A DNA stretch of 40,781 nt from Dehalococcoidales bacterium (GTDB lineage: Bacteria; Chloroflexota; Dehalococcoidia; Dehalococcoidales; GCA-2688105), in contig NZBQ01000002.1 of NCBI GenBank assembly GCA_002688105.1, positions 72,311 through 113,091 of the forward strand, given 5' to 3'. Position numbers and translations under genes: made by a program. Shown piece by piece: positions 9,995 through 37,830 of the stretch. The stretch's first letter is position 1, and every line of letters begins with the position of its first letter. The notes beneath the pieces are model-generated. The model searched no databases. It was given only the letters and a program-made list of their open reading frames with translations, and was not told where the DNA came from.

Positions 9995-12457
9995 TCACCT
10001 CACCACCATATTTAGCAGCCTCCCCGGAACATATATCATTTTAATAATCTCCTTACCCTCAAGGTGAGCTTTGACCCGCTGGCTTTCAAGCGCCAACTGC
10101 TTTGCTTCAGTCTCAGCAATAGACACCGGAACTGTAATGCGGTCACGCAACTTACCGTTGACCTGAACCACCAGGGTAATCTCTTCATCCTTAGCCAGCT
10201 CCTCATCCCACTGCGGCCAGCTTTGATTATGGATACTATACCCGTGTCCTCTTCTCTGCCACAACTCCTCAGCAAGATGAGGAGTAGTCGGTGCCTGAAG
10301 CCGGAGCAGGGTATCCACCGACTCCCTCCAGGCGGAATCGGCGACAGTCCCGATTTCCTTCGCCTTTATCAGATAGTTGGTGAACTCCATAAGTGCCGCT
10401 ATCATAGTATTAAATCTAAACCCTTCCAAGTCATCGGTAACCTTCTTGATAGTCTGGTGAGTAATCCGCTCCAGGTCTCTAAGGGCTTTGTCATCAGATG
10501 GTTTATTTTCAGCTATGACTCTCGCCGCATATGGTTCCAGCACCAGATTCCACACCCGTTTAAGCCAGCGGCTTATGCCGCTAATACCGCTGTCATCCCA
10601 CTCACCACCCTGCTCCCAGGGGGCAATAAACATAAGATAGGCACGAACGACATCAGCCCCCAGCTCGGAAACATACTCATCGGGGTTAATCACATTGCCC
10701 CGCGATTTACTCATCTTCTGCCGTTGCGTAATAATAATCCCCTGGTTAAACAGGCGGGCAAATGGTTCGCCAAAATCAACCAGACCCATATCCCGAAGCG
10801 CCTTAATAAAGAAGCGGGTATAGAATAGATGCATCACGGCATGCTCAGCACCACCGGTATATATGTCCACCGGCATCCAGTATTTCAACCTGTCCGCATC
10901 AAAGGGAGCAGTATCACAGTTAGGGCTGGTATAGCGCAAAAAATACCACGAGGAGCACATAAAGGTATCCATAGTATCCGTTTCCCGCTTAGCCGGGGCT
11001 GAACACCGCGGACAGGTAGTATTGACGAACGGCTCACAGTACTTCAGAGGGGATTCACCGGTAGGTCTGAACTCGGCATCCTCAGGTAGCAGCACCGGCA
11101 GGTACTCCTCAGGAACCGGGACAATACCACAGTCAGAGCAGTAAATCATAGGTATCGGTGCTCCCCAGTAGCGCTGGCGGGAGATAAGCCAGTCGCGAAG
11201 TCTATAAGTGATGGCTCGCCCTCCATAACCCTTCGCCTCCAGGAAATCAGACACCACCGCTATACCCTGCTGGCTGGGAAGCCCGTTAAACTGCCCTGAG
11301 TTAACCATCACGCCGGGATCAATATACGCCGCCTCCAACTCTCCTCCCTGCCATTCGGGTGGAGCTATCACCACCCTTATCGGCAGGTTATACTTTTGGG
11401 CAAAGGCAAAATCACGCTCATCGTGAGCCGGGACCCCCATTACTGCCCCGGTGCCGTAGCCCATCAACACATAATCAGCAATCCAGATAGGCACCGATTC
11501 ACCATTAAGTCGGTTTACCACATAAGCCCCGGTAAACACCCCGTCTTTTTCCTTCTCGGTTGACAGCCGCTCAACCTCACTCTCCCGCCGTGACAGAGCA
11601 ATGTAGTCTTCAACTTCAGTCTTCCTCTCCGGTGAGGTCAGCTTGGCTACCAGCGGGTGCTCTGGAGCCAGAACCATAAAGGTAACGCCAAAAGTGGTAT
11701 CAGGACGGGTGGTAAATACCCGAAGCTCTTTTTCCTCTACCCCGGGATAGTCAAGAGCAAAGGAAATATCAGCCCCCTGGCTCTTACCCACCCAGTTTCT
11801 CTGCATTATCTGTATCCGCTCCGACCAGTCAATACCATCATACTGCATAAGCTCATCAGCATATTTAGTGATGCGGAAGAACCACTGCTCCAAATCCCGC
11901 CGGCTAACTGTGGCTCCACAGCGCTCACAGAAGCCTCCGGTCACCACCTGCTCATTAGCCAGCACTGTCTGGCAGCGAGGACACCAGTTAACCGGGGCCT
12001 TGCCCCGATAAGCCAGACCTGCCTCATACAGCTTCAAAAAGAACCACTGCGTCCACTTATAATACTCAGGCAGACAGGTAATGACCTCCCGACTCCAGTC
12101 ATAGATGGCACCTAGGCTCTTAAGCTGACGGCGCATATTGTCTACGTTCTGCATCGTCCAGGTAAAGGGGTGAATACCCCGACTGATAGCGGCATTCTCC
12201 GCCGGCAGCCCAAAGGCATCAAACCCCATAGGATGCAGTACATTATAGCCCTGCATTCGCTTAAATCGAGCCCGAACATCAGACGGAGCCATGGCATACC
12301 AGTGCCCGATATGAAGATCGCCTGAGGTGTAGGGGAACATAGTCAGGGCATACCACTTGGGTCGAGAACTACCCTCACCAACCTCATACAGCCTGTCCTC
12401 AGCCCACTTCTGCTGCCACTTCTTCTCTACTTCACTAGGATTATATCTGGCTACCAT
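9995..12457 (-). CDS. leuS: Leucyl-tRNA synthetase
   Basis: LeuS charges tRNA-Leu. The 820-residue class I synthetase has the HIGH motif as LHIGHW near residue 50 and the KMSKS motif in RQKMSKSRGNV. A Zn-like CPRC...CERC segment and the CP1 editing domain (TTFGVTFMVLAPEHP, TGAVMGVPAHDERDF) lie between them. Length and domain order are normal for the bacterial type. The gene is preceded by a promoter, a short ORF and a strong terminator-like hairpin ending about 20 bases before the ATG, which suggests attenuation control. Confidence 0.97.
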   Translation of the reverse strand: MVARYNPSEVEKKWQQKWAEDRLYEVGEGSSRPKWYALTMFPYTSGDLHIGHWYAMAPSDVRARFKRMQGYNVLHPMGFDAFGLPAENAAISRGIHPFTWTMQNVDNMRRQLKSLGAIYDWSREVITCLPEYYKWTQWFFLKLYEAGLAYRGKAPVNWCPRCQTVLANEQVVTGGFCERCGATVSRRDLEQWFFRITKYADELMQYDGIDWSERIQIMQRNWVGKSQGADISFALDYPGVEEKELRVFTTRPDTTFGVTFMVLAPEHPLVAKLTSPERKTEVEDYIALSRRESEVERLSTEKEKDGVFTGAYVVNRLNGESVPIWIADYVLMGYGTGAVMGVPAHDERDFAFAQKYNLPIRVVIAPPEWQGGELEAAYIDPGVMVNSGQFNGLPSQQGIAVVSDFLEAKGYGGRAITYRLRDWLISRQRYWGAPIPMIYCSDCGIVPVPEEYLPVLLPEDAEFRPTGESPLKYCEPFVNTTCPRCSAPAKRETDTMDTFMCSSWYFLRYTSPNCDTAPFDADRLKYWMPVDIYTGGAEHAVMHLFYTRFFIKALRDMGLVDFGEPFARLFNQGIIITQRQKMSKSRGNVINPDEYVSELGADVVRAYLMFIAPWEQGGEWDDSGISGISRWLKRVWNLVLEPYAARVIAENKPSDDKALRDLERITHQTIKKVTDDLEGFRFNTMIAALMEFTNYLIKAKEIGTVADSAWRESVDTLLRLQAPTTPHLAEELWQRRGHGYSIHNQSWPQWDEELAKDEEITLVVQVNGKLRDRITVPVSIAETEAKQLALESQRVKAHLEGKEIIKMIYVPGRLLNMVVR

Positions 12458-12470
12458 TTAACCTTCCCAT

Positions 12471-12554
12471 CTAAATAAAAGCCCCTCGCCACAAAATGCC
12501 AACGGCGAAGAGCAGCATTACCTTAGTCTGACAGTTCAGCTCCATAGCTCTCAT
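12471..12554 (-). CDS. Candidate leuS leader peptide (27 aa)
   Basis: An ATG-to-TAG frame encodes MRAMELNCQTKVMLLFAVGI followed by LWRGAFI, with four Leu codons, two of them adjacent at the base of the terminator hairpin. The predicted transcription start falls only one to three bases before this ATG, so translation would be leaderless. There is no Shine-Dalgarno. Whether it is translated is inference; the position and Leu codons are seen. Confidence 0.45.
   Translation of the reverse strand: MRAMELNCQTKVMLLFAVGILWRGAFI
12473..12513 (-). terminator. Terminator-like hairpin (attenuator) upstream of leuS
   Basis: On the minus strand GCTCTTCGCC (12504-12513) pairs with GGCGAGGGGC (12481-12490), ten pairs including two G-U, with a 13-base loop and then TTTTATTT. 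It ends about 20 bases before the leuS ATG. A GAGAGC at the start of the leader could pair with GCTCTT and open the hairpin, giving a mutually exclusive antiterminator. Confidence 0.7.
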
Positions 12555-12562
12555 TGGAGATA

Positions 12563-12591
12563 ATTGTAGCAATAAAGCCTATGGTGTGCAA
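12563..12591 (-). promoter_or_regulatory. Candidate leuS promoter
   Basis: On the minus strand TTGCAC (12586-12591) and TACAAT (12563-12568) are separated by 17 bp. The predicted start is near 12556, which places the whole attenuator inside the leuS leader. Confidence 0.6.
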
Positions 12592-12619
12592 CTAAAGCAG
12601 CTCAGACTGATTGCCGATA

Positions 12620-12648
12620 TTGTGAACACGCCCTGAAGCTGATATGAT
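12620..12648 (+). promoter_or_regulatory. Candidate promoter of the ABC-2 exporter
   Basis: TTGTGA (12620-12625) and TATGAT (12643-12648) are separated by 17 bp and lie about 32 bases before the ATP-binding protein ATG. It is divergent from the leuS promoter. Confidence 0.5.
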
Positions 12649-12680
12649 TGATTTAGTATATTAACCAAGCTGGATTCTCA

Positions 12681-13592
12681 ATGGCAATTATTAAGACCAA
12701 AAACCTGACCAAGAAATTCAAAGACTTATTAGCCGTAGATAGCGTGAGTTTAGAAGTAGAGGACGGCGAATGCTTCGGACTCTTGGGGCCCAACGGCGCC
12801 GGCAAGACTTCCCTTATTAGAATGATAACGGCGGTCTCACCGCCTACTCAGGGTGAGATATGGGTGATGGGTAACAACCTGAAGACCCATTCTCAGCAAG
12901 TAAAGGCCTTTCTAGGAGTTGTCCCCCAGTTAGACAATCTTGACCAAGACCTGACCGTGCTTCAGAACCTGATGACCTTTGCCCGATACTTCGATATACC
13001 CAAGGACGAGGCACATCGGCGCAGCATGGAAGTCTTAAGCCTGTTTGAGCTAGAAAGCAAGCGCAACAGCCACCTTAAAGAGCTATCAGGAGGAATGAAA
13101 CGGCGCCTGCTCTTAGCCAGAGGCTTGATTAACCTGCCACAGATTATGATACTTGACGAGCCGACCATAGGCCTCGACCCCCAGGCCAAATATTTAGTCT
13201 GGCACAAGCTCACTGAGCTAAAGTCCCAGGGCGTCACCCAGCTTCTGTGCACCCAGAATATGGAAGAGGCAACCGTCCTCTGTGACCGGGTAGCCATAAT
13301 GCATCAAGGTAAAATCCTCAGTCTTGATACCCCCCGGAGGCTCATTGCCAAATATGTGGGCAATGAGGTATGGGAAATTGAGGTAAACTCAGACGAAAGG
13401 CTTAGGACGGTCAAGGAATTGGAAAATCGTGGACTTGACTTTGAGGAGGTAGGGGGTAAGTTTCAGGTCTTCCACATTGAGGATGAGAAGTCGGTGACAG
13501 GGTTAGTAAATTCACTGGGGAGACTGCAGCGAAGACAGGCTACGCTAGAGGACGTCTTCCTCCGGCTTACCGGGAGGTCTTTAGCCGAATGA
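12681..13592 (+). CDS. ABC-2 exporter ATP-binding protein, NodI/DrrA-like
   Basis: This 303-residue ATPase has Walker A GLLGPNGAGKTS, the ABC signature LSGGMKRRLLLARGL and Walker B QIMILDEPTIGLDPQ. The signature with MKRRL and the ~80-residue C-terminal extension fit the NodI/DrrA type of exporter ATPase. It overlaps the permease gene by four bases (ATGA), so the two are translationally coupled. The substrate is unknown; NodIJ-like systems are widespread and most do not export Nod factors. No clear Shine-Dalgarno precedes the ATG. Confidence 0.93.
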   Translation: MAIIKTKNLTKKFKDLLAVDSVSLEVEDGECFGLLGPNGAGKTSLIRMITAVSPPTQGEIWVMGNNLKTHSQQVKAFLGVVPQLDNLDQDLTVLQNLMTFARYFDIPKDEAHRRSMEVLSLFELESKRNSHLKELSGGMKRRLLLARGLINLPQIMILDEPTIGLDPQAKYLVWHKLTELKSQGVTQLLCTQNMEEATVLCDRVAIMHQGKILSLDTPRRLIAKYVGNEVWEIEVNSDERLRTVKELENRGLDFEEVGGKFQVFHIEDEKSVTGLVNSLGRLQRRQATLEDVFLRLTGRSLAE

Positions 13593-37740: not shown

Positions 37741-37830
37741 GGAGGGGTGTCCGAGTGGCCTAAGGTGACGGTCCTGAAAACCGTTGTTCCCGCAAGGGGA
37801 CCGTGGGTTCGAATCCCACCCCCTCCGCCA
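37741..37830 (+). tRNA. tRNA-Ser (UGA), with C33
   Basis: A 90-base class II tRNA folds fully. The acceptor is GGAGGGG/CCCCTCC, the anticodon arm ACGGT-CCTGAAA-ACCGT, the long variable arm GTTCCC/GGGGAC, and the T arm GTGGG-TTCGAAT-CCCAC. The discriminator is G with an encoded CCA. The anticodon is TGA. The base before it, position 33, is C where U is nearly universal. The next gene starts immediately after CCA on the opposite strand. Confidence 0.93.

Follow-up and report, generated by a model that had tools for sequence, protein, structure and literature searches.

A conserved hairpin before leuS in Dehalococcoidales, a candidate terminator probably derived from a T-box

Between its promoter and its start codon, the leucyl-tRNA synthetase gene (leuS) of the window (the whole stretch of 40,781 nucleotides of DNA from an uncultured Dehalococcoidales bacterium analysed here) carries a short ORF overlapping a hairpin with a U-tract, and the question is whether this leader attenuates leuS through a peptide or has another origin and function. 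The entire arrangement lies, like leuS itself (ATG at 12457), on the minus strand, and its elements are collected in Table 1. The TTGCAC-17-TACAAT promoter of the original prediction is present as described, and the form TTGC...TTG(C/T)TACAAT also appears before leuS in many relatives and before two tRNA genes of the window's genome. Since the upstream gene, encoding an ABC transporter, is divergent (plus strand, from 12681), the hairpin falls within the transcript of leuS itself, and a role as terminator of the upstream gene was ruled out for the window. Rfam gave no match at the locus, its sole match in the window being a tRNA gene at 37741-37827 on the plus strand.

Table 1. Features of the leuS leader in the window
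Feature	Position	Strand	Details and basis
leuS, leucyl-tRNA synthetase (820 aa)	9995..12457	-	Pfam: leucyl editing domain, class I catalytic and anticodon domains
Presumed ribosome-binding site of leuS	12462..12470	-	purine-rich, contains GGGAAGG; sequence
27-aa ORF spanning leader and hairpin, unlikely to act as a leader peptide	12471..12554	-	MRAMELNCQTKVMLLFAVGILWRGAFI; ATG 12554-12552, 27 codons, TAG 12473-12471; present, start and frame not conserved
U-tract	12473..12480	-	TTTTATTT; kept as TTTT(A/G)TTTA(G/A) in most relatives
Conserved leuS hairpin; candidate T-box-derived intrinsic terminator	12481..12513	-	arms 12513-12503 and 12491-12481; folding, covariance model, alignment
GAGAGC, could pair with GCTCTT (12513-12508) of the hairpin 5' arm	12547..12552	-	not conserved
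Promoter TTGCAC-N17-TACAAT, TTGC before the -10	12563..12591	-	-35 TTGCAC 12591-12586, 17-nt spacer, -10 TACAAT 12568-12563; start site predicted

The stem and tail that had been described ahead of leuS were found, with 10-11 bp that include G-U pairs, a loop of 11 nt and a tail lying 15 nt ahead of the leuS ATG. Folded in isolation, the hairpin reached -17.3 kcal/mol (z -3.0), a stability attained by none of 200 shuffled sequences; folding of the entire leader against shuffles revealed nothing unusual (z -0.13). Because of its 11-nt loop, the hairpin was missed by a simple terminator scan of the window, and a quick d'Aubenton-Carafa calculation returned terminator scores that were mostly slightly negative, a borderline result that leaves the strength of the putative terminator uncertain. 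A DNA palindrome for a repressor was disfavoured, as mismatches between the arms occur almost only where RNA allows G-U pairing, which points to RNA folding instead. A widespread genomic repeat was also ruled out, the window's own genome yielding a single match to the hairpin.

Upstream regions of leuS were gathered from 41 genomes within the order and from another 80 contigs, and a near-identical element (GCTCTTCGCT..loop..GGCGGAGGGC TTTTATTTAG) was observed to recur before leuS; the remaining leader does not align. A covariance model of this hairpin (R2), run on 156 genomes of the order with a cut-off of E<=1e-4, produced 19 matches, all of them immediately upstream of leuS and seven absent from the set used to build the model. 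When 393 genomes sampled from the class were searched, every match at that cut-off was one of these same leuS leaders, and the weaker ones were not near leuS. Spacing from hairpin to leuS start is short in 18 of the 19 relatives. The alignment of related upstream regions that had been suggested as a check confirmed that the stem is conserved, with 98.4% of its cells in standard pairs versus 51-66% when the arms were slid, and with changes on both sides of two pairs; the observed number of pair types was reached by 1 of 500 shuffles. Mean pairwise identity was 77% in the hairpins compared to 50% at the fourfold sites of their leuS genes, and the arms are kept in sequence across families, G-U pairs included, with variable loops; this sequence is held more tightly than a bare terminator needs. 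The hairpin is real and under selection. A LeuRS tree places the leaders with the hairpin together in a single group of weak support, within which L021 has lost the hairpin and L034 and L035 have exchanged the stem, keeping layout and tail. In the window's genome the same hairpin was not seen at valS, metS, proS, glyS or hisS, and serS sits there behind another synthetase-like gene. Pairing of the leuS loop with a tRNA 3' end through UGGU was considered and dropped, since TGGT, TGTT, TGTC and TGCT all occur at this place and the motif is not conserved.

A G+C-rich hairpin followed by a U-tract is thus found between promoter and gene, in the same orientation and conserved, at about ten loci where leuS has its own promoter, as expected of an intrinsic premature terminator. 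Eight of them, the window included, show the hairpin behind a TTGC..TACAAT-type promoter (L148, L119, L120, L121, L126, L129 and L131; the promoter of L121 is cut off at the contig end), and in L034 and L035 the leuS promoter is followed by the hairpin with the exchanged stem. In the window the predicted transcription start precedes the hairpin by about 40 nt; in most leaders with their own promoter the distance is 6-20 nt, the overall range up to the hairpin being 6-63 nt. In five relatives (L117, L116, L118, L127, L128) a tRNA-Ala(GGC) gene directly precedes the hairpin and leuS, and L123 and L124 carry at this position a degenerate copy, which has its 5' half replaced in L123 and is eroded in L124. 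The window's genome has its tRNA-Ala(GGC) on another contig (C45). A similar promoter without the hairpin precedes leuS in L012, L037, L018 and L022; that of L012 and L037 (TTGCAC..TTGCTACAAT) leaves only about 15 nt to the ATG, so judging from this spacing their leuS mRNA is probably nearly leaderless. One metagenome bin holds two leuS genes, G043:C37 (L148) and G043:C56 (L116), 81-83% identical to that of the window and with different leader layouts, the bin being either mixed or a carrier of paralogs.

Of the attenuation put forward in the original prediction, a conserved and leuS-specific candidate premature terminator between promoter and gene was upheld by the 19 matches, all at leuS, but a leader-peptide mechanism was not, as no ORF is conserved. 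According to such a mechanism, ribosome stalling at Leu codons would free GAGAGC to pair with GCTCTT, block the terminator and raise leuS expression. The pieces do exist in the window: the 27-aa ORF overlapping the stem is there with its four Leu codons, the nascent RNA up to the 3' arm has a fold of -12.5 kcal/mol in which GAGAGC is paired to GCUCUU, and in the near relatives L117, L116 and L118 a short ORF opens with ATG in this frame, so that four leaders share it. Across the relatives, however, neither the start nor the frame of a Leu-codon ORF is conserved. An ORF beginning ahead of the hairpin and continuing into it is missing from L148, L119, L120, L121, L129, L034 and L035, where only 6-17 nt separate the predicted start from the hairpin; hairpin length varies by non-multiples of three, and stops close the frame in L119, L120 and L124. 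Moreover, Leu codons (4 of 27) are only mildly enriched and form no run. The GAGAGC antiterminator, which can pair with GCTCTT in the window, is not conserved and cannot form in L148, L121, L129, L131, L034 or L035, whose leaders of 6-11 nt give it no room. With relatives whose leaders lack the ORF or are too short, the peptide model fails as a general mechanism, and we regard it as highly improbable.

The claim that the leader has no T-box sequences proved correct at this locus: RF00230 gave no match at window positions 12440-12700 even at E<=5, nor at the related leuS leaders; a regular expression allowing up to two mismatches detected no AGGGUGGNACCGCG before leuS in the window's clade; and Stem I and specifier codon are absent. 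Position and sequence of the hairpin nevertheless suggest a T-box ancestor. With the same expression, 12 other Chloroflexota leuS loci showed the T-box core AGGGTGGTACCRCG, perfectly matched or with a single change, before leuS and followed by a terminator; the eight of these run through Rfam at a permissive threshold all matched the T-box family, at 48-79 bits against a gathering score of 93. GAACTCGCC with a CTC (Leu) specifier is visible only in these T-box-bearing leuS loci. In Anaerolineae and other Chloroflexota, the gene arrangement reads tRNA-Ala(CGC), tRNA-Ala(GGC), T-box with Leu (CTC) specifier and leuS, with both tRNA genes upstream in 11 of the 12 T-box-bearing loci. The tRNA-Ala(CGC)-tRNA-Ala(GGC) pair before leuS is conserved in L082, L095, L096, L099-L101, L104-L108 and L110 (Anaerolineae and relatives). 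Of the parts of a T-box, the window has the terminator stem with its U-tract, ahead of the gene that would be regulated. Compared with 11 leuS T-box terminators, its hairpin scored better than stem-preserving shuffles (18 of 2000 were as good) and was closer to them than were all of about 30 other terminator-like hairpins. The likeness can be followed by eye in L107, where the T-box terminator CTTCGCC..TGGCGAGG..TTTATTTA resembles that of the window (aligned, L107 CTTCGCCCCTGATGGCGAGGACTTTTTTATTTA and window CTTCGCCGTTGGCATTTTGTGGCGAGGGGCTTTTATTTA), and R2 picks up the terminators of three of these T-boxes (L101, L110 and L100), with E values of 0.005-0.025. The resemblance in sequence is modest, and R2 gives trp and thrS terminators similar scores. 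A faint resemblance of the window leader to Stem I, equalled by 12 of 500 shuffles, is a lead only. T-box leaders occur elsewhere in the window's genome, at ileS (L150 445-709, G000:C16:69444-69708) and at a trpE-like gene (L234 1579-1848, G000:C43). A 2008 study (PMC2494555) reported T-boxes in Dehalococcoides at ileS, at trpE and at a trpB-like gene, in agreement with those seen here at ileS, trpE-like and trpB-like genes.

For such a bare terminator we propose a T-box origin as the most likely explanation, on the grounds of its syntenic position and its resemblance to leuS T-box terminators. The leuS hairpin would probably be a T-box terminator that survived the loss of Stem I and antiterminator and now acts as a fixed or leaky brake on leuS. 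A leucine-specific T-box would have lost Stem I with its CTC specifier and the antiterminator AGGGUGGUACCGCG, retaining the terminator stem and U-tract. RNA polymerase would then halt at the U-tract or continue into leuS, and the hairpin, apparently with no dedicated sensor, would set a constant, leaky proportion between short transcript and leuS mRNA, most transcripts ending after the U-tract and a fraction reading through. Where tRNA-Ala(GGC) lies directly upstream, the hairpin may also terminate the tRNA transcript, which could explain its retention. A T-box at leuS is absent from all 41 close relatives, the search turned up no intermediate in which part of a leuS T-box survives, and the motif is absent from the other Dehalococcoidia between the window's clade and Anaerolineae; descent from a T-box would thus require several losses or an exchanged leader.

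The tight conservation of the arms leaves room for a sensor or trans-acting factor, and the hairpin could accordingly be an attenuator whose arms or U-tract are recognised in trans, for example by LeuRS, another RNA-binding protein or an RNA. Arms that are conserved across families down to their G-U pairs, next to variable loops, would fit such recognition, as would short leaders with no space for a sensor in cis. We nonetheless consider it unlikely, as no candidate factor was identified and the replacement of the whole stem in L034 and L035, together with the loss of the hairpin in L021, argues against a fixed binding site. Rather unlikely, too, is a beginning unrelated to T-boxes, in which the hairpin served as terminator of the upstream tRNA-Ala(GGC) and stayed at leuS after the tRNA gene was lost or moved. 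The tRNA gene or its degenerate copy adjoins the hairpin in seven relatives and has its place elsewhere in the window's genome, as this history would predict, but L034 has a separate terminator-like hairpin after its tRNA-Ala, L034 and L035 keep a hairpin after the leuS promoter, and the hairpin is retained where leuS has its own promoter. Its likeness to leuS T-box terminators, moreover, exceeds that of other terminator-like hairpins.

Weak R2 matches led us to examine the thrS leaders. Most thrS leaders of the order, including that of the window's genome, contain a short hairpin, 97.7% paired, whose tail is of the leuS style. A model of the thrS hairpin (R3) scored highest on thrS leaders, followed by genuine T-box terminators of ileS, trpE-like and trpB-like genes, so that the thrS hairpin is not separable from T-box terminators by covariance model. 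In many of these leaders GGGTGGTT stands just 5' of the hairpin, although the promoter is no more than some tens of bases away, and there is no room for a full Stem I; it is possible that they are T-boxes without Stem I. Terminator-only hairpins were seen at G000:C33:19279-19319 (L183, L221, L245) and in L134, L137, L139, L169-L186 and L193-L198. The finding of truncated T-box-like leaders at two synthetase genes strengthens the reading of the leuS hairpin as a decayed T-box. It is doubtful, in our judgement quite improbable, that leuS and thrS of the order share a minimal attenuator, namely a T-box that has been cut down to its terminator, keeps an acceptor-end-like motif GGGUGGU in many thrS leaders and would, with no specifier stem, continue to respond to tRNA charging or the synthetase.

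If descent from a T-box is right, these leaders would document an end stage of riboswitch evolution, in which the sensor was lost and selection preserved the off-switch in many genomes; other classes show the intact, ancestor-type arrangement at the same syntenic place. They would also advise caution against calling every promoter-ORF-terminator array a leader-peptide attenuator, and would make it testable whether a bare terminator ahead of an essential synthetase gene serves as a fixed brake or is still a sensor.

A search of the literature for a leuS leader of this kind retrieved no paper. Leader-peptide attenuators of the his, leu and trp type resemble the window in having a promoter, a short ORF with cognate codons and a terminator; the leuS leader differs from them in that it has no run of Leu codons, no conserved ORF and no conserved antiterminator. 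Closer in kind are the 5' attenuators catalogued by Naville and Gautheret in 2010 (PMC2965389), likewise intrinsic terminators in a leader, conserved before the same gene and with no annotated sensor; that text makes no mention of Chloroflexi, Dehalococcoides or leuS. The thrS leaders of the order have in common with leuS the promoter, the short leader, the terminator-only hairpin and the T-tract ending in ATTTA, but many of them keep GGGTGGTT, reminiscent of the T-box motif, and they are far more widely distributed in the order. Unlike the leuS-type T-box riboswitch (RF00230), the window has no Stem I, specifier or AGGGUGGNACCGCG antiterminator, yet it shares with this riboswitch the place between tRNA-Ala(GGC) and leuS, similar terminator arms and the TTTTATTTA tail.
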